Below, in pieces: positions 2,697-63,036 of a stretch of 64,000 nt of DNA (the stretch's first letter is position 1; every line of letters starts with the position of its first letter). The DNA is taken from NCBI GenBank assembly GCA_001464455.1, contig LNEI01000010.1:124001-188000 (forward strand), in the 5' to 3' direction. The translations under genes and the position numbers were made by a program. The stretch comes from Acidobacteria bacterium Ga0077534. Lineage in GTDB: Bacteria > Acidobacteriota > Blastocatellia > Pyrinomonadales > Pyrinomonadaceae. A model generated the notes under the pieces. That model saw nothing but the letters and a program-made list of their open reading frames with translations, did not search any database and was not told the origin of the DNA.

Positions 2697-2754
2697 TTAA
2701 CTGTTTGGGTTAAGTCATTTTTTGACGGTCCGAATCCGAGATCCATTAATTGTT

Positions 2755-5328
2755 ATGAAAAGATCGATACACCTACGCGTTTTACTAAGTACGTTTATTC
2801 TGATATCGCTGGTTGCTCCAATTTCGGTGCTTGCGTTTGATAATGGGAAAAAGTACTTCAGTCAGGGCATGAAGCATGAGGTTGCCGAGGAATGGGACAA
2901 GGCTGTTGAGCAGTTTGCTCTGGCGGTGGCCGATAGCCCAAAGAATCCTGAATATCGGCTCCACCTCGTGAGGTCTCTGTTCAACGCATCGCAGCAATTC
3001 ATGAAGAAAGGCTCGATGGCGGCGAAAGAGAAGGACTACGAGGCCGCGTATCTGGCTTTCCGCCGGGCCTACGCTTTCGATCCGACCAACGAACTGGCGA
3101 AGTCTGAGATGGACCGGATGGTTCGGCTGCAGCAGGCGATAAACGAAGGTTCGACCGACAATAAAACCCCTGGTAAAGACGACGGTAAGGTCAAAATGGT
3201 GACGACCGGTTACAGCCCGACATCAACCGCTGGACTGCCGCCGCAGGTTTCGCAAAAGCTTGAAAAGCTCCGCGATCTTCCGTTCCCGGCAGGTGTGGAT
3301 CTTCAATTTATTGTTAAGGAGCTTGCCCGCGACCTCGACCTTAACGTGCTGTTCGATACGGAATCGTTCCGAACGACGGGACGTAAAGTTTTTATTGATC
3401 TCAAAAATGTATCGGCTGCCAGGGCCCTCGACTACATCTTTTTGCAGGAAGGGCTTTTCTTCCAGAAAGTCGGCCCGCGAACGATCATCGTCGCGACGCA
3501 GAATCAGCGGCAGAAATTTCAGCAGCTAGTTCTCAGAACGTTCTATCTCGCAAACGCCGCTCCGAAAGACATCGTTAAGGTCGTTCAGACCGCGATCCCG
3601 GCTCAGCCCGGCCGCAGTCAGACGATCGTTCTTCAGGATGAAGCGACGAACAGTGTGACGATCCGTGACACGAGTGAAAATATCGCGTTGATCGGACAGT
3701 TGATCAAATCTCTCGATAAGGATCGTGCCGAGGTCGTGATGGATGTGGCGATCTATGAAGTGAACAAGAATGATCTGCTTCAGTTTGGTAATCAGGTCGG
3801 CACGCAGTCGCAATTGCAGGGCGGGCTCGGCGGTACGCAGCAAGGCCAGATCAGGTTAGGCGGACAGGGACTGTTTGGGACTGCGGCTGGAACCGCTGCC
3901 GCGACTGTTCTCTCATCTGTTATCCCAACGGGTATTATCCTTCCGACTGCTAACCTTTCAGCGTTCCAGAGTAAGAATGACACGAAACTTCTCGCTTTCT
4001 CGCAGATACACGCTTTTAACAACGAGGATTCTTCCGCCCGAATCGGGCAGCGTGTTCCTGTTCAGAGCGCGCAGTACCTCGGGGTCGGCGGCACGACCGG
4101 TGGGCAGACCGGATTTGGGCAGACCGCGAACGTTATCAACTATGAGCAGGTCGGTTTGACGCTTAAGTTCAAACCCATCGTTTTTCCTAATCAGGACGTT
4201 CAGGTTGCCATGGAGATCGAGTCCAAGGACGTTGCGGGCGGCAGTACCGAGAATCCTGTTTTCACGGAACGAACTATAAAAGGAACTGCTCGAATTCAAA
4301 ATAACAAGACTCTCTTGCTTGCGAGCGTGAATCAGGGCGTTGAGAGTAAAGGGCGTCAGGGCCTGCCGCTACTTGGTTTGATCCCGATCATCGGTCGGCT
4401 CTTTACGGCTCCGACGCGTGACAATCGACAGGTTGACATCGTTATCGCCGTGACGCCGCGGGTCATTCGTGCTCCGGCCATCTTGCCTGAGGACGAGATC
4501 GAAAGAGCAACGGGAAGTCTTGCAGTTCCGACGACGAATACTTTGCAGGAAATGGTGATCCAGGAAGAGCGTGACGAATTGCTCGCCGCCGCTCGCCGAA
4601 TTCCAACCAACTCGGATACTCAACTGCCTGATCAACCGATCGAATATGTCAGGGCCGAGGCCGTTGACGTTAGCAAAACGAGTGTTACGGCTTCAGACAT
4701 GACGAGTGCCGAAGCTCTAGCGGCTGGAATACCCGGACTCAAACCGATCGACGCAGCACCAAGATCGCTGGAACTTACCAAGACATCGGATGTAGTAAAA
4801 TCAGCGGCGCCGGACGAAGCGAAACCTCTTCCTCAGGTCGCGGTTCCAGTAAAGACGCTTGAGATCAAGGAAAAAGTCGATACAGAACAGGCATCCGTGG
4901 TGGCGGAGCCGAAAGTCGAACCGGTTCCCGACGCGGGAGCTGTCGAGCTGCGGCTCGGTGCCGAATTCGGAGAAATGAAGGCCGGTGACAAGGTCAAGAT
5001 CCCAGTGATCATGCAGGGAGGCGGGCTTTTCCGTACGGCGACGATGGGGCTGAAATTCGACCCGGCAAAAGTCGCGGTTCGCTCGGTCACGCACGGCGAG
5101 GTCTTCGCCGGGCAGGCAAATTCGGAAGCCAAACCGTTCGTCAATGAAAAGGGCAGCCTATTTGTGACGTTCACGGCGGCTGATGAGAAAGGACTGATCC
5201 CTAACGGCACGCTCGCGTACCTTGAGGTCGAAGCTCTCGTTCCCGGCAGGCCGATGCTCGAATTTGATCGCAATATGTTCATTTTTCAGTCGGCACAAGG
5301 TGTGAATCTGCCGCTGAAATTGCAGTAG
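2755..5328 (+). CDS. Type II/IV secretion secretin (GspD/PilQ-like) with C-terminal cohesin domain
   Basis: An outer-membrane secretin of about 857 residues that would form the exit pore of a type II secretion or type IV pilus machine. The ATG at 2755 is chosen over the upstream TTG at 2722 because it opens a clean signal peptide (MKRSIHLRVLL..., ending near VLAF). Domains in order: tetratricopeptide-like repeats at about 25-115; an STN/secretin-N0 domain at about 175-235; NolW-type secretin-N; the secretin core at about 327-575, including PLLGLIPIIGRLF and the terminal DIVIAVTPRVIRAP strand; a charged linker; and a cohesin-type domain at about 730-857. The cohesin domain is unusual for model GspD but is known from acidobacterial secretins. 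First gene of an operon with two pseudopilins and a PilM-like protein; no GspE/GspF is in the window. Confidence 0.9.
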   Translation: MKRSIHLRVLLSTFILISLVAPISVLAFDNGKKYFSQGMKHEVAEEWDKAVEQFALAVADSPKNPEYRLHLVRSLFNASQQFMKKGSMAAKEKDYEAAYLAFRRAYAFDPTNELAKSEMDRMVRLQQAINEGSTDNKTPGKDDGKVKMVTTGYSPTSTAGLPPQVSQKLEKLRDLPFPAGVDLQFIVKELARDLDLNVLFDTESFRTTGRKVFIDLKNVSAARALDYIFLQEGLFFQKVGPRTIIVATQNQRQKFQQLVLRTFYLANAAPKDIVKVVQTAIPAQPGRSQTIVLQDEATNSVTIRDTSENIALIGQLIKSLDKDRAEVVMDVAIYEVNKNDLLQFGNQVGTQSQLQGGLGGTQQGQIRLGGQGLFGTAAGTAAATVLSSVIPTGIILPTANLSAFQSKNDTKLLAFSQIHAFNNEDSSARIGQRVPVQSAQYLGVGGTTGGQTGFGQTANVINYEQVGLTLKFKPIVFPNQDVQVAMEIESKDVAGGSTENPVFTERTIKGTARIQNNKTLLLASVNQGVESKGRQGLPLLGLIPIIGRLFTAPTRDNRQVDIVIAVTPRVIRAPAILPEDEIERATGSLAVPTTNTLQEMVIQEERDELLAAARRIPTNSDTQLPDQPIEYVRAEAVDVSKTSVTASDMTSAEALAAGIPGLKPIDAAPRSLELTKTSDVVKSAAPDEAKPLPQVAVPVKTLEIKEKVDTEQASVVAEPKVEPVPDAGAVELRLGAEFGEMKAGDKVKIPVIMQGGGLFRTATMGLKFDPAKVAVRSVTHGEVFAGQANSEAKPFVNEKGSLFVTFTAADEKGLIPNGTLAYLEVEALVPGRPMLEFDRNMFIFQSAQGVNLPLKLQ

Positions 5329-5347
5329 CTTTTTTTAATTGCCGTCA

Positions 5348-5986
5348 ATGTCCAAGATTTTCCGAAAACCTAACGCCGAATCCGGATACAGCTTACTTGA
5401 GTTGGTAGCCACGTTGGGTGTGCTTGCTGTTCTGGTCATGGGAACGCTTCCGCTGGCGCAGAACGCGAACAAGCGACAGAAAGAACAGCGGCTTCGAGAA
5501 TCGCTTGCGATGATGCGGCGGGCGATCGATGAATTCAGGCGCGACACTTTCGGAGCCTGTCCGCAGGGAGCTATTCCGGGAGGGCTTCCGGGACAAGGGG
5601 CAGGCGGCGGGCCGGTCGATCCACGCAGTCGCGTCGTAATAGACGACTGTACGATATTCGACAACGAAAACCTCGACCGCTACCCGCCGTCGCTTGAAAT
5701 GCTGGTGGACGGCGTAAAGGTCCGATCAAGAATGCCAAATCTGGTCAGCGGCAGCGGGATCCGCGACGGCTCGCTGCAGGCGACGGAGATCAACGAGGAA
5801 AAGGAGATAATTAAAGTCTACCTTCGCGAACTTCCAATCGATCCGATGACTGGAGAAAAAGACTGGAAACTCCGCTCGTCGTATCAGGATGTTGACTCAG
5901 AAAACTGGGACGACATAAACGTTTTTGATGTTCGATCTAGCTCGGAAGAAGAGGCTTTGAATGGAGAGAAGTATAGTGATTGGTAA
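5348..5986 (+). CDS. Type II secretion pseudopilin (GspG-like)
   Basis: This is a prepilin-type protein of 212 residues. After a short basic leader comes the N-methylation/cleavage motif SGYSLLELVATLGVLAVL, in which prepilin peptidase cuts after Gly and the Glu at mature position 5 is present. The hydrophobic helix is followed by a coiled stretch (QKEQRLRESLAMMRRAIDEF) and a C-terminal domain with the GspG-like DPMTGEKDWKLR segment. ATG 5348 is preferred to the TTG at 5339. The gene starts 19 bases after the secretin and overlaps the next pseudopilin gene by 26 bases, implying translational coupling. It would form part of the pseudopilus that pushes substrates through the secretin. A Gly/Pro-rich insert near residues 60-85 is larger than in model GspG. 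Confidence 0.85.
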   Translation: MSKIFRKPNAESGYSLLELVATLGVLAVLVMGTLPLAQNANKRQKEQRLRESLAMMRRAIDEFRRDTFGACPQGAIPGGLPGQGAGGGPVDPRSRVVIDDCTIFDNENLDRYPPSLEMLVDGVKVRSRMPNLVSGSGIRDGSLQATEINEEKEIIKVYLRELPIDPMTGEKDWKLRSSYQDVDSENWDDINVFDVRSSSEEEALNGEKYSDW

Positions 5987-6470
5987 ATCGATTTTGGATT
6001 TTAGATTTTGGATCTTGGATTCGCTCCGCGTGAGCTTTCGCGGCATTTCCAGGTCAGAACCGTCAATCCAAAATCCAAAATCCAAGATCCAAAATCAAAA
6101 GGGTTTTTCCCTTTTAGAGCTGATCATCGCGATGTTCATTATGATCATCCTGCTTTCGATCGCGATCCCGACATATGAGCGGAGCGTCAGAAACGCGAGA
6201 GAGATAGTTTTGAAGGAGAATTTGTTTCAGCTTCGCCGGGCGATCGACCAGTACGCAGGGGATAAGGGCAAACTGCCGGCTTCGGTTGACGATCTTGTGA
6301 CGGAAAAATACCTTCGCGAAAAACCTATCGACCCTATCACCGAAACTGCCGAATGGGATGAGATAATGGGCGAAGACCCCAATTCCGCTGACGGCGAGCA
6401 AGGCCTCGTCAACGTCAAATCGCTGGCACCGGGCCAGGACGTGAACGGCGTTTCCCTCAGCGAATACTAG
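5961..6470 (+). CDS. Type II secretion pseudopilin with an abnormally long leader encoded by a repeat
   Basis: A 169-residue prepilin-type protein. The cleavage motif QKGFSLLELIIAMFIMIILLSIAIP is perfect in type, with the conserved Glu at +5, but it begins only after about 48 residues; class III prepilin leaders are usually 6-30 residues. The extra leader (starting MERSIVIGKSILDFRFWILD) is translated from an inverted repeat of GGATTTT-like motifs at 5991-6102. The mature part resembles the neighbouring GspG-like protein (LREKPIDPITETAEWDEI). The ATG at 5961 overlaps the upstream gene; an alternative internal start within the repeat cannot be excluded. PilM-like gene follows after 9 bp. Either the leader is tolerated, or translation starts at a non-ATG codon nearer the motif. 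Confidence 0.82.
   Translation: MERSIVIGKSILDFRFWILDSLRVSFRGISRSEPSIQNPKSKIQNQKGFSLLELIIAMFIMIILLSIAIPTYERSVRNAREIVLKENLFQLRRAIDQYAGDKGKLPASVDDLVTEKYLREKPIDPITETAEWDEIMGEDPNSADGEQGLVNVKSLAPGQDVNGVSLSEY
5991..6102. repeat. Inverted repeat of GGATTTT/AAAATCC motifs inside the pseudopilin gene
   Basis: The left arm consists of GGATTTT-like tandem units (5991-6021) and the right arm of AAAATCC-like units (6066-6102). The 17-base blocks at 6005-6021 and 6079-6095 are exact complements. The inner spacer holds a CCGCG/CGCGG pair. The whole block is read through in frame as part of a coding sequence. Similar short-motif blocks occur at about 30731-30798, 48176-48252, 48605-48646 and 61367-61404. Confidence 0.8.
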
Positions 6471-6479
6471 ACGGACAAT

Positions 6480-7406
6480 ATGTTTTCATCGCTCACCAAA
6501 CCCAATTACCCGAACGCGGCATTGGGGTTAGAAAGTACATTCATGACGGCGGTCGCTCTTTCCGGCGGACGCCGTGGCTATTCGGTAAAGCAGGCGGGTT
6601 CGCTCGAACTTGCTCCGGGTCTCGTAACGCCAAGTTTTCTTGAACCAAACATCGTCGATCATCACGAATTTGCCGCATGCCTGCGTGAAGTGTCAGAGAT
6701 GGCGGGGCTTTTAAGGCAGAAGCGATGGTCGATCGCACTCCCGAGCAACACTGCCCGGACGGCGATCCTCGCTCTCGACAGCGTACCGGCGTCTGCTAAA
6801 GAAGCCGAGGATGTTTTGGATTGGAAAGCTGAGCAGAGCTTCGGTGCTCCGGCCGCTGAACTTCGGATCGCAAAGCAAAAGATCTCGCCCGACGCGGAAG
6901 GCCGTCAGCGTTACTTTGCGACCGCTGTCAGGCTGCAGATAATCGACGAATATGAGACGCATTTCGAGTCGCTAGGCTGGAAAGCCGGGCTGATCCTGCC
7001 GCGAGCCGTCGGTGAGGCGAACTGGCTTATGGACCGGAAAGCAACGGGCGACTCGTTGCTTATAAGCGGCAACAGCGACGGCTTTACAGCTCTGCTGATG
7101 CGCGGCAGTGAACCGGCGGTGGTTCGGTCGGTAACTTGCGCACAAAGCGAAGTAGATGACGAGATCTATCGTCTCGTAATGTTTTACAACGACCGCTTCG
7201 GTGCAGGAGGCGGCGACGTTCTTGAAAAGCTACTCGTTGTCGGCCGCAGCCTGATACCTGCGAGAGTTCAGACAATTGCCTCCGACGCTTTGGGAAGAAA
7301 GGTCAGAGTGTTGTCCCACGACGAGGTCGGATTAAACCTGCCTGATGGATCGATCAGTTTCAACGATGTGGCCGGTCCGGCAGGGCTCGCTGCTCTGGGA
7401 ACCTAG
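6480..7406 (+). CDS. PilM/GspL-like pilus assembly protein (actin-like ATPase fold)
   Basis: A 308-residue cytoplasmic protein with the pattern of the PilM family: an N-terminal segment with a conserved Gly (AALGLESTFMTAVAL) as in the actin-like phosphate-binding region, a central ILALDSVPASAKEAEDVLDWKAEQ segment typical of PilM (vhv-P-elvgkEleeair context), and a C-terminal VVGRSLIPARV strand. In type IV pili PilM binds the PilN tail and links the inner-membrane platform to the motor. Here it closes the secretin-pseudopilin operon and is followed by a strong terminator. PilN/O/P equivalents are not adjacent, so the complete machine must be encoded elsewhere. Divergent from model PilM; assignment rests on fold-level resemblance plus context. 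Confidence 0.72.
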   Translation: MFSSLTKPNYPNAALGLESTFMTAVALSGGRRGYSVKQAGSLELAPGLVTPSFLEPNIVDHHEFAACLREVSEMAGLLRQKRWSIALPSNTARTAILALDSVPASAKEAEDVLDWKAEQSFGAPAAELRIAKQKISPDAEGRQRYFATAVRLQIIDEYETHFESLGWKAGLILPRAVGEANWLMDRKATGDSLLISGNSDGFTALLMRGSEPAVVRSVTCAQSEVDDEIYRLVMFYNDRFGAGGGDVLEKLLVVGRSLIPARVQTIASDALGRKVRVLSHDEVGLNLPDGSISFNDVAGPAGLAALGT

Positions 7407-23590: not shown

Positions 23591-25165
23591 TCATTCGAGT
23601 CCGACAAAGATGATATCAGCGATATTTCCCTGAATTTGAACGACCTTTGCGGCGTATCTATAGCGTTTTGAGAAAACGCTGATCGTATACGTCTCGCCGC
23701 CTCTGATCCCGGGAAAACTGTAAACGCCGAACGAACTCGTCGTGGCGGTCTGCCGAACGCCGCGATAGTCAGTGATGGTTACTATCGCATTCCTAAGACC
23801 GAGACCTGAGGGGGTGACCACTTGGCCTCCGACGTTGTAGATGGGGCCAATCGTAATGTAAAAGTCAGTCGGAACGTCAACGCTCGCACATATCTGCCGG
23901 CCTGCAAAGTTTGGGCCCGGGAAGCCCGGTGGCAAGACCGTTCTGTCAACCAACTGTCCACCTTCGCGGTGAAGAATGCGAAGCCGGGCGAATTCCTCAG
24001 GGTCGTCTACGGTGAAATCAATAAAACAGGCCAGCACCGGCCCCGCGAACGGTGCGGAAGTAGTGATGTTGTAGTGCGTACTTCCCTGACGCATCGAGTA
24101 GCCAGGAGGTGTGAAGCCGGGAGCGACCTCCGGAATATTTGTGAAAAATGTATTTCCGGGCTGGAAAACGGTTGCGAACGATGCCGAAACAAGGCCGCTC
24201 GGATCGGTTACCGTTACATTCGTCCCGGGTGGTGTATTTGATGCCGGCGTAGGAGTAGGACTCGGGGTCGGGGTTGCCGTAGGCGTCGCAGTCGGCGTCG
24301 GAGTCGCGGTTGGAGTTGGAGTTGGCGTCGCGGTCGGCGTCGGAGTTGGTGTCGCCGTTGGAGTCGGTGTTGCGGTTGGAGTTGGAGTTGGCGTTGGCGT
24401 CGCGGTCGGCGTCGGAGTTGGTGTCGCCGTTGGAGTCGGTGTTGCGGTTGGAGTTGGAGTTGGCGTTGGCGTCGCGGTCGGCGTCGGCGTTGGAGTTGGA
24501 GTTGGCGTCACGGTCGGCGTCGGAGTTGGTGTCGCCGTTGGAGTCGGTGTCGCGGTTGGAGTTGGCGTCGCGGTTGGAGTTGGAGTTACGGTCGAAGTCG
24601 GTGTTGGTGTCGGAGTTGGAGTTGGTCCGCCCGTTCCAATTTGTATTATCCCAGACTGATAGGTTGCTGAGACCAGTGATCCGGTAGCTGTCGAAATACT
24701 CTGACCGGTGGGTGTTGACCCAAAACTTACGATCGATGGACCGGATGCTGCTCCAGCGAGAACATCAAAGCGAACGATCAACATCTGCCGGGTTCCCGCC
24801 GCATAGCTGTTTGTTGTATCCGCCAGAATACCCAGACGTCCAAAGCCTGTTTGCGATGGGTTGGTTCCTAACGAGGTGCTCGGCGGAACTCCGTTGCCAA
24901 GGGTCACAAAAGGATTTGCAAGCTTGGTAGGATCAAAATTCAGAGTGAAACTTATCGAAGCTTCGTTGCCCTGCGCGTCTAGCTCGATCACTGCGTTCAC
25001 CTGCTGGCCTTGCTGAGTGCTGACGTCCACGACCCTGATGACCCGCCCGCCCTGAGCCGTCACTTTCGAGTTCAACGACCCGCCTGCAACCGCTGCCACG
25101 ATCAGCATCGCGGCGGTAAAAATTTTGAGCCCAAAAGTGAAACGCGAAAAGACGTGAACTTTCAT
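23591..25165 (-). CDS. Secreted cohesin-like protein with Thr-Pro repeat linker and shared C-terminal domain
   Basis: A 524-residue exported protein. The start ATG 25165 opens a signal peptide ([14 protein letters not shown]). Residues about 35-170 form a cohesin-type beta-sandwich ([36 protein letters not shown]), a fold used for protein docking. A long Thr-Pro(-Ala) linker of roughly 130 residues follows, encoded by a hexanucleotide-based minisatellite. Then come a beta-rich domain with [18 protein letters not shown] and a terminal ~80-residue domain ending [10 protein letters not shown], clearly homologous to the end of the convergent SpoIID protein ([24 protein letters not shown] in both). 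The layout resembles linker-separated extracellular enzymes or adhesins. Partner and function unknown. Confidence 0.8.
24246..24628. repeat. Minisatellite encoding the Thr-Pro linker
   Basis: An array of GTTGGA/GTCGGC-like hexamers, read on the minus strand as Thr-Pro-Thr-Pro-Thr-Ala. Superimposed is a 72-base (24-codon) higher-order unit: 24327-24398 and 24399-24470 are identical by eye, and the unit starts again at 24471 before diverging. The length is a multiple of three, so unit gain or loss keeps the frame. Confidence 0.9.
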
Positions 25166-30355: not shown

Positions 30356-30730
30356 ATGCGCCGCCCGGAACGCCTTGGAGAGGCGTTAAAGATCGAGATC
30401 GCGGAGGTAGTTGGCTTTGAGCTGACCGATCCGCGCATTGAAATGGTCACGGTAACGGACGTCGAGTTGTCGGCTGACCTGCGTGACGCGAAGGTCTACG
30501 TCTTGATCCGCGGAGACGAAGCCGAGATGGATCAGGCGTTGAGATCGCTGCGAAATGCGTCGACATTTATTCGGCAGCAGGTGGCAATGAATTTGGACCT
30601 AAGGCATGCGCCGCACGTACATTTCGTACGCGATACGGCGGAAGAAAATGCCGGGCGGGTCAGTGAGATCCTTGATGATCTCACGCGGCGTGGGGAAATT
30701 AAGAAGGATGATAGTGAGAGTGTGAAGTAA
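30356..30730 (+). CDS. rbfA: Ribosome-binding factor A
   Basis: A 124-residue KH-fold protein that binds the 16S 5' helix and helps 30S maturation, particularly in cold. It begins MRRPERLGEALKIEIAEVV, shows the family's ELTDPRIEMVTVTDVELSADLRDAKVYV core, and ends with HVHFVRDTAEENAGRVSEIL. The ATG is one base after the infB stop, so translation is coupled. Last gene of the ribosome/transcription cluster before a repeat-bearing gap. Confidence 0.95.
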   Translation: MRRPERLGEALKIEIAEVVGFELTDPRIEMVTVTDVELSADLRDAKVYVLIRGDEAEMDQALRSLRNASTFIRQQVAMNLDLRHAPHVHFVRDTAEENAGRVSEILDDLTRRGEIKKDDSESVK

Positions 30731-30798
30731 AAAGGTAAAAGGCGAAAGGCAAAATGAAACCCAATTTTTGCCTTTTGCCTTTCGCCATTTGCCTTCCG
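30731..30798. repeat. AAAGGCA-type short-motif inverted repeat
   Basis: GGCGAAAGGCAAAA (30741-30754) is the exact reverse complement of TTTTGCCTTTCGCC (30773-30786), flanked by more AAAGG/CCTTT copies. It lies between rbfA and nrnA and could act as a transcript end, but the motif composition matches the dispersed short-motif blocks elsewhere in the window. Confidence 0.75.
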
Positions 30799-48119: not shown

Positions 48120-48175
48120 ATAGCAATAGTTAAGCGGTTAGCTGGGAAAAATGTCGGCGGGAAAATGAGAGTTCA

Positions 48176-48252
48176 AAATTCAAGGTTCAAAATTATAAAT
48201 TCGGCACTCGAATACCTAAAACCAAAGATCAAAGGTCAAAGATCAAGCACCA
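48176..48252. repeat. Short-motif repeat block (TTCAAAA / AAAGATC)
   Basis: Tandem 6-8 base motifs, first TTCAAAATTCAAGGTTCAAAATT, then CAAAGATCAAAGGTCAAAGATC, both A/T-rich and of the same family style as the block in the pseudopilin gene. Confidence 0.7.
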
Positions 48253-48604
48253 AAGAACGAGCGTCACAGAGTTGCGTCCGGGGACGCTTTTCGGGTGGAA
48301 TTCCGAACCGTTTTATGCGTTCTCCGAACCGCTGTGACGTCGATGGTTGGACGAAACCCGATCCCATCTTGCGACCCATCGACCGGTTCCATTGTGTGAT
48401 ACATCGGCCTGACTACGCATTTTTTATACATTTCAAGCATTTTGCGTCAATTTACGCATAATACGACGTTTCACGCGGTTTAGCATTCAAATTCTCAGCA
48501 GAATATGGCAGCGTAGAAAGTCGGAGCCGGGAACGACAGTGACCGGGGCATTCAAAGCCGCGTGTTGTTAAAGCCTCAACCACGGCGAATACGGAACGTC
48601 ACGG

Positions 48605-48646
48605 ATCAAGACCAAAGATCAAAGCTCAAAGCTCCAAGATCAAAAA
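48605..48646. repeat. Short-motif repeat block (AAAGATCAAAG) directly before a gene start
   Basis: Repeated AAGATCAAAG / AAGCTCAAAG units end four bases before the ATG at 48650, so the repeat would be in the 5' untranslated region of that gene. Confidence 0.65.
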
Positions 48647-48649
48647 ACT

Positions 48650-49099
48650 ATGAAACGAAACTGGCAGCAATGTTCTCCGACACAAAGATTGGGCCGTTGG
48701 CGGGTTCCGCAGGCGACGATGAACCGCCGGGGCGACCTAAAGCTCAGCCGCGTAGCCTGGGAAATGCTGGGTCTCGCTCCGTACGCTTTCGTGCTGTTCG
48801 ACAAACCCAACCAGACCATCGGCATCCGCCCGTGCCGCGGCCATCTGAAAGACACCTTCAAACTCACCGCCGATGGCCGCCACGGAGCCGCAGTCCTAAA
48901 TCTAGCGAGTCTCCGCTACGATTTCGGCATCAAGTTCGACATCACGATCCGCTTTCACGAGATCCACGCCGACCAAGACGGCACCCTCATCCTCGACCTG
49001 ACCAAAGCCACCGCCGCCTACCACGGCCACCGCATCGGAGCCTTTCACAGCGAACGAAAAGAAAAACTCGAACGCAAACGCCAAGTCGCCCCGTATTAA
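48650..49099 (+). CDS. Conserved hypothetical protein, 149 aa
   Basis: I do not recognise a named family. The 149-residue frame is more protein-like than the overlapping one at 48562-49176 (Arg/Pro-rich, a shadow). It starts MKRNWQQCSPTQRLGRWR (very basic), then VPQATMNRRGDLKLSRVAWEMLG, a hydrophobic FVLFDKPNQTIGI segment and an LTKATAAYHGHRIGAFHSERKEKLERKRQ basic tail. The N- and C-terminal basic ends suggest nucleic-acid contact, but this is a guess. It stands alone behind the repeat block. Confidence 0.6.
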   Translation: MKRNWQQCSPTQRLGRWRVPQATMNRRGDLKLSRVAWEMLGLAPYAFVLFDKPNQTIGIRPCRGHLKDTFKLTADGRHGAAVLNLASLRYDFGIKFDITIRFHEIHADQDGTLILDLTKATAAYHGHRIGAFHSERKEKLERKRQVAPY

Positions 49100-61360: not shown

Positions 61361-61366
61361 ACGGAC

Positions 61367-61404
61367 AAATAAAAGGTAAAAGGAAAAGGGCAAAAGTGCA
61401 AGTT
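61367..61404. repeat. Short-motif block AAAAGGTAAAAGGAAAAGGGCAAAA
   Basis: A run of AAAAGG-type units immediately upstream of the tRNA gene (it is on the minus strand) and downstream of the regulator gene. Same style as the block after rbfA. Confidence 0.6.
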
Positions 61405-62667: not shown

Positions 62668-63036
62668 AACTCAAGATTAAATCACAAATAACGCCGCAAC
62701 GCACAGATGCTAGCCCAAACCACGATAAAATGGGGAAGAAAAACCCTTGGTTGAGGCGGCTCCGGGCGTTTTTTTGTCTGATATTAGGCGGTAAATGCGT
62801 GATCTGTCACGAAATTAAGGCGGGCCGACCCCTTAACCCAGCGGGCTGACCCCTCAACCCAGCGGGCTGACCTCTCAACCCAGCGGGCTGACTGCTCAAC
62901 CCAGCGGGCTGACCTCTCAACCCAGCGGGCTGACTGCTCAACCCAGCGGGCTGACCGCTCAACCCGGCGGGTTTATCACTTGGAAGTACTGGAAAAGTGC
63001 TGATCTCTTGCCTGCGGATCGAGTTTGCGGCGGCGA
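62668..63036. other. Gene-poor gap containing a 21-bp tandem array (369 bp)
   Basis: Holds the 21-bp repeat array (next entry). On the minus strand an open frame starting with GTG at 63040 overlaps the nuclease stop (GTGA) and continues through the array to 62807; its content is only repeats, so I do not call a gene. The first ~130 bases show no feature. Confidence 0.5.
62818..62980. repeat. 21-bp tandem repeat array
   Basis: GCGGGCTGAC starts at 62820 (degenerate), 62841, 62862, 62883, 62904, 62925, 62946 and a degenerate 62967, i.e. seven to eight copies at exactly 21-bp spacing; the unit is CAGCGGGCTGACNNCTCAACC. Being a multiple of three, the minus strand stays open, encoding 7-residue units (QPAGLSS, QPAGLRG). 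Confidence 0.88.

Follow-up and report, generated by a model that had tools for sequence, protein, structure and literature searches.

The question raised by this locus is whether the leader of a GspG-like pseudopilin was lengthened by the insertion of a repeat and, if so, what kind of repeat it was. In the 64,000-nucleotide stretch of DNA analyzed here (the window), the pseudopilin open frame (5961-6470) lies downstream of a secretin-like gene and a second pseudopilin-like gene, and all 60 relatives searched carry an orthologue. Prepilin peptidase cuts type IV prepilins at G|F and removes the leader. A profile search matched PF07963 (N_methyl) to residues 44-69 of the protein at 31.2 bits against a cut-off of 21.2, which places the prepilin cleavage and methylation motif in the host pseudopilin; the GspG equivalog TIGR01710 was not reached (33.9 bits, cut-off 88.85). 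The secretin-like gene (2722-5328) has a C-terminal cohesin-domain match (PF00963), a pairing that we judged unusual. The features of the locus are as follows.

5339-5986, + strand: upstream pseudopilin-like gene, from its open reading frame; its 3' end overlaps the likely start of the GspG-like pseudopilin, and its matches to TIGR01710 and ComGE are weak and below the cut-off
5961-6470, + strand: GspG-like pseudopilin open frame, including the long leader; PF07963 above the cut-off, TIGR01710 below it
5976-5978, + strand: GTG, most likely the start of the pseudopilin; overlaps the upstream stop and is common to array-free relatives (TATAGTGAYTGGTAA)
5990-6021, + strand: left arm of the hairpin, about 4.6 copies of the heptamer GATTTTG (GGATTTT); inverted-repeat search and TRF
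6022-6064, + strand: loop of 43 nucleotides without a gene, containing GTG 6030, an alternative start; inverted-repeat search
6065-6096, + strand: right arm, about 5.1 copies of the heptamer AATCCAA (AAAATCC), inverted relative to the left arm and translated as SIQNPKSKIQN; inverted-repeat search, TRF and fold
6102-6107, + strand: GGT TTT, the G|F codons at which the prepilin peptidase motif GFSLLE is cut; translation of the open frame and PF07963 match

Both arms are tandem arrays of period 7 (4.6 and 5.1 copies by TRF), 32 nucleotides long, 91% complementary and separated by 43 nucleotides. A sequence-only reading of this DNA had picked out 17-base complements at 6005-6021 and 6079-6095, which we confirmed as exact, and a leader of about 48 residues; we counted 47 before the G of GFSLLE when starting from ATG 5961. 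The thresholds used throughout to detect period-7 arrays and inverted repeats (16 of 21 period matches, local score of 16) were our own choice and were not fitted to any model. The GGATTTT/AAAATCC unit is free of stop codons in all frames of both strands, and a 16-mer of it occurs six times in the window with up to two mismatches, compared with a mean of 0.16 in shuffled sequence. As RNA, the hairpin folds at -57.9 kcal/mol (z -4.7), and none of 200 shuffles folded equally well. The arms form the terminal inverted repeats expected of a MITE, and no target-site duplication was recognized by eye. A literature search with the encoded peptide and the repeat letters found no paper. REP/BIME elements, which are mobilized by RAYT, have the tetranucleotide GTAG at the base of their palindrome; an element of this kind was rejected, as neither GTAG nor CTAC occurs within 5985-6100. 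Hits to animal-type miRNA families in Rfam, far below the gathering score, were taken as chance matches of a long hairpin.

The sequence-only reading had explained the long leader by an in-frame insertion of a dispersed repeat, and comparison with orthologues agrees with it. Of 37 same-genus leaders, 31 were parsed and the other six were re-examined and had no array; one (L015) has no recognizable orthologous motif, leaving 36 examined. The period-7 array was absent from 27 of these and present in nine, so that the orthologues do not all share the long leader. At least eight different heptamers occur among the nine array-bearing leaders, with one common to two species:

G000 (the genome of the window) and G012: TCCAAAA, hairpin in both
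G006: ACTGCGG/CCGCAGT, hairpin
G036: AGTTGGC and CCCAAAT
G023: AGTGCGG and another
G025: GTGGTCA
G024: GCAAAAT
G008: ATTCCGC
G016: ATCCGCG

The closest orthologue, in G034, is 90% identical in amino acids and its frame opens with the same MERSIVIG, but it has no TCCAAAA array and its leader is short (24 residues from ATG or 19 from GTG). Its spacer looks like a decayed, degenerate period-7 stretch that falls below the call of our detector. These comparisons show that the heptamer block was inserted into the leader. With at least eight different heptamers among the nine arrays in 36 leaders, the leader site is one that is hit repeatedly by different repeats. The TCCAAAA hairpin also occupies the orthologous leader of G012, whose protein shares just 64% identity with that of G000; at this low identity, a second hit, or an old insertion since lost in G034, is the easier reading of the shared heptamer.

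The repeat is also dispersed, as had been proposed: about seven further places in the G000 genome carry the GGATTTT/AAAATCC unit. It forms a hairpin between rpmI-like and rplT-like genes (names read from translations) and single in-frame arrays in the genes for aspartate carbamoyltransferase, a DAP/arginine-type decarboxylase, a pyridoxal decarboxylase, and a DNA polymerase III alpha-like protein. The array in aspartate carbamoyltransferase (PyrB) occupies a loop that is of variable length within the genus. Among 30 PyrB loci parsed, G000 and G012 carry the TCCAAAA heptamer, G011 carries a different one, and 27 carry none. We noted in-frame heptamer arrays in the PyrB loop, with a sequence that differs by species, at L003:1495-1530 (G000 C13), L233 and L236. 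Of 30 rpsK-rpsD spacers, 22 were parsed, one of them interrupted by the end of its contig, and eight of the 22 likewise had arrays of various heptamers. Sampling 400 kb of G000 gave eight period-7 arrays, compared with zero to three each for periods 4, 5, 8, 10, 11 and 13; periods 6 and 12 were commoner than 7, with 11 arrays each, an excess that we attribute to the repetition of whole codons in coding sequence. A leader that is cleaved off would be a permissive site that can absorb foreign in-frame sequence, and the PyrB loop would be another. For annotation, N-terminal peptides such as NPKSKIQN would then be recognizable as element derived.

How far the leader is truly lengthened depends on the start codon. 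Leader length is 47 residues from ATG 5961, 42 from GTG 5976, 36 or 29 from TTG codons, and 24 from GTG 6030. The sequence-only reading had allowed either an internal start after the repeat or tolerance of the long leader. The first of these falls, since no in-frame ATG, GTG or TTG lies 3' of the right arm; what survives of it is a start between the arms. If the protein started at GTG 6030, the element would be real but the leader would have a normal 24 residues, with no true lengthening. This codon is in frame, and G012 likewise has an in-frame GTG between its arms. However, several array-free relatives open the frame with a GTG overlapping the upstream stop (TATAGTGAYTGGTAA). The open frame of L038 has no start codon other than this GTG, giving an 8-residue leader, and L013 has GTGs as its only start codons; other array-free relatives (e.g., L022 and L030) instead begin with an ATG that coincides with or follows the upstream stop. 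Moreover, six of eight untruncated array-bearing leaders stay open from the conserved GTG across the array as far as the cleavage motif; those of G006 and G016 are out of frame with it. We therefore regard a start between the arms as rather unlikely, and judged from the conserved frame, translation of the pseudopilin most likely starts at GTG 5976.

The leader's heptamer led to a gene family. To our knowledge, no function is known for PF05635/TIGR02436 genes, which are common. In G001, G036 and G012, the heptamer of the leader bounds a gene of this family just upstream of a dprA-like gene, and in G001 and G036 the inverted pairs, about 420 bp apart, enclose a gene for a PF05635 ("23S rRNA-intervening sequence protein") product. 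The family was assigned by Pfam in G001 and G036 and by TIGR02436 in G012, and dprA was read from the translation. The arrangement extends to other loci of the family. In relatives (36 of 40 TIGR02436 loci used, four with truncated flanks left out), an inverted repeat spanned the gene in 28 of 36 loci, compared with 2/1000 random and 0/144 shifted intervals, and period-7 arrays lay on both sides in 13 of 36, compared with 0/1000 and 0/144. We also examined loci from across phyla, namely, the 78 that were left when two with short flanks were dropped from the best 80 of 575 confirmed stretches, chosen with two conserved peptide patterns. These loci come from named genomes, including Bacteroidetes, Clostridia, Proteobacteria, Planctomycetes, Chloroflexi, Cyanobacteria, two candidate-phylum records and one archaeal record. 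Among the 78, an inverted repeat was found in 56, compared with 1 of 285 control intervals; a period-7 array lay on at least one side in 54 (controls, 21/285) and on both sides in 32 (controls, 1/285). Both-sided arrays of periods 5, 6 and 9 to 12 were found at none of these best-scoring loci and those of period 8 at two. By the same test, 8 of 36 loci in relatives and 22 of 78 from the best 80 of 575 across phyla had no inverted repeat. Under a stricter length filter, which retained 35 rather than 36 of the relatives' PF05635 loci and 10 of the 11 in G012, flanking inverted repeats were found at 0 of 26 pseudopilin, 0 of 27 rpsD and 1 of 29 pyrB loci, compared with 5 of 10 PF05635 loci in G012. 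These counts show that inverted heptamer arrays of the kind seen in the leader bound PF05635/TIGR02436 genes in relatives and in many phyla. Units with period-8 instead of period-7 arms were seen at L101, L110, L166, L190 and L194.

The heptamer usually differs from locus to locus, while the two arms of one locus agree (6 or 7 of 7 positions matching in 27 of 32). Polarity is also regular: at 48 of 55 loci the arm upstream of the PF05635 gene is richer in G than in C, and the nearby opposed array pairs among those listed for G012 all have one polarity (6/6). Across phyla, heptamer and protein did not covary significantly overall (55 loci, Mantel r of 0.047, 365 of 2,000 permutations as high), which speaks against a simple fixed recognition code between them, and we claim no such code. 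Only the closest PF05635 proteins (identity of at least 0.6, 51 pairs) shared heptamers more often, in 20% of cases compared with 4 to 5%. That heptamers are selected to be stop-free in all frames was rejected as a general explanation, since only 24 of 55 arm heptamers lack stops when read on the gene strand, compared with 69% of random ones.

The elements take two forms. The full form, of about 420 to 560 bp, has one PF05635/TIGR02436 (four-helix-bundle) gene between its arms, and the short form consists only of arms and a loop of about 20 to 120 nucleotides. The window holds a second short element:

30723-30798, + strand: inverted heptamer element lacking a gene (AAAAGGC / GCCTTTT), situated between two genes and upstream of a DHH-family gene

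Its heptamer is the same as that of a PF05635 element elsewhere in G000 (L112), which fills the space between the stop of one gene and the start of the next. At this site, G008 has a 7-bp spacer and G034 has no element. G012 and G035 lack a second full element (L107, with GTGGTCA arms), of which G034 has a remnant. These cases show that one and the same spacer holds a full element in some species and none in others. Beside the L112 element lies a dispersed repeat (L112:456-520) with many matches in G008 and G012, several of them arranged as opposed pairs a short distance apart. Only a few bases are common to the loops of short forms and the inner ends of a full element, a point against derivation of the short form from the full one; an origin by internal deletion is suggestive only. 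None of the 11 PF05635-family loci of G000 is bounded by the leader heptamer (TCCAAAA), so that no autonomous relative with the same ends was found in this genome.

The probable explanation of the locus, in our judgment, is that the hairpin is a gene-less member of an IVS-like class of elements, inserted in the operon spacer, translated from the overlapping GTG, and discarded at the G|F cleavage. Small elements of this class end in inverted 7-bp arrays, with a G-rich left arm and its complement as the right arm; the full unit carries its own PF05635 gene, and short units would be nonautonomous. Such units enter spacers between operon genes, and here one short unit entered the spacer between two pseudopilin genes. 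Translation would begin at the GTG overlapping the upstream stop and pass both arms without a stop, while in the transcript the arms would form a long stem. The added residues would be removed with the rest of the leader at the G|F cut, probably by prepilin peptidase, and the insertion would be tolerated because they are cleaved off. Mobilization may have occurred in trans by a PF05635 protein. Because no PF05635 gene of G000 is bounded by the leader heptamer, the supposed helper would now be absent from this genome. Binding of the hairpin by such a protein is plausible because PF05635 resembles Avd and has solved relatives (2GSC and 2RLD).

A different explanation is that these are plain heptanucleotide repeats that grew by replication slippage, with inverted pairs made by template switching, and with neither an element nor a link to a protein. 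Heptameric repeats are reported, in the available sections of PMC4692102, to be overrepresented in many bacterial genomes, with slippage proposed as the cause, and single unpaired arrays do occur here, for example, inside pyrB, lysA-like and decarboxylase genes. However, slippage does not predict inverted arms of the same unit around one gene family (28/36 loci in relatives and 56/78 from the best 80 of 575, compared with 2/1000 and 1/285), a fixed arm polarity (48/55), or the presence and absence of a whole gene-bearing unit, and we consider it improbable. That the hairpin is an ordinary regulatory or processing hairpin of the operon (a terminator, an attenuator or a site for RNase III) that selection has maintained, and not a mobile repeat, fits its strong fold and the similar hairpins that relatives have between ribosomal protein genes and between nuo genes (names read from translations), but it is very improbable, given that most relatives have no hairpin at this place, that the sequences differ where one exists, that no Rfam family reached the gathering threshold in a scan of 5700-6500, and that no U run directly follows the right arm, which led us to reject a terminator. 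If RNase III did cut the leader hairpin, start codon 5976 would be separated from the rest of the pseudopilin message.

Extending the preferred explanation, that of an inserted IVS-like element, beyond this locus is more tentative. Heptamer-bounded PF05635 units may be a very widespread mobile class, in bacteria and at least one archaeal record, with the 23S rRNA IVS as only its best-known landing site; an oligomeric four-helix-bundle protein might act on the heptamer hairpin, in DNA or RNA form, to move it, and hairpins without a gene, like single arrays, might spread by this route into operon spacers and, in frame, into both enzymes and prepilin leaders. We hold this to be possible, at somewhat less than an even chance. 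It would make one testable question of the role of the PF05635 protein and the abundance of 7-bp repeats in bacterial genomes.

Several known systems resemble these elements in part. The available text of PMC4990558 describes the IVS of the Coxiella burnetii 23S rRNA, which is cut out by RNase III and in which heptameric repeats (GACAGAT), varying in copy number between strains, precede the S23p open reading frame. The likeness extends to the inverted-repeat stem, the tandem heptamers, the PF05635 open reading frame of the full form, and a length of about 430 nucleotides, and from that text the Coxiella IVS fits as one case of the heptamer-bounded PF05635 rule. The leader copy differs in its site, a pseudopilin's coding leader instead of a 23S rRNA gene, and has no PF05635/S23p open reading frame between its arms, only the 43-nucleotide loop. 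The heptameric tandem repeats of Xanthomonas and Nostoc (GGGAATC; PMC4692102) and the TAACTGA repeats of Beggiatoaceae (PMC4679880) are, in the sections available, also of period 7, dispersed and mostly intergenic, and in Xanthomonas many convergent pairs form inverted repeats, as here (PMC4692102); their unit sequences are different. Those sections, searched for "four helix" in PMC4692102 and for "four helix bundle" and "S23" in PMC4679880, make no mention of these terms and do not tie the repeats to PF05635. According to the accessible part of PMC10053308, PF05635 resembles Avd, the accessory protein of diversity-generating retroelements, and the protein of L107 matches bAvd (PF22296) below the cut-off. 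We claim no such retroelement for PF05635 units. Rickettsia palindromic elements and MITEs are small palindromic repeats, some of which lie in frame inside protein genes. The elements described here differ in having arms of 7-bp arrays with no fixed end sequence and no recognized target duplication. Heptameric repeats and IVS elements have each been published already. Joining them as a general rule appears new, as we found no paper uniting them in the open-licence literature (which leaves out bioRxiv and most subscription journals); a description of the link outside that literature is possible.

The window holds further repeats. Period-7 arrays of the TTCAAAA and GATCAAA types, apparently intergenic, lie at 48172-48201, 48209-48256 and 48603-48650, and a short AAAAGGT array of the same period lies at 61365-61398. 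Longer tandem repeats at 24262-24619 and 62820-62971 (18/36/72-bp and 21-bp units) are unrelated in sequence to the leader heptamer.
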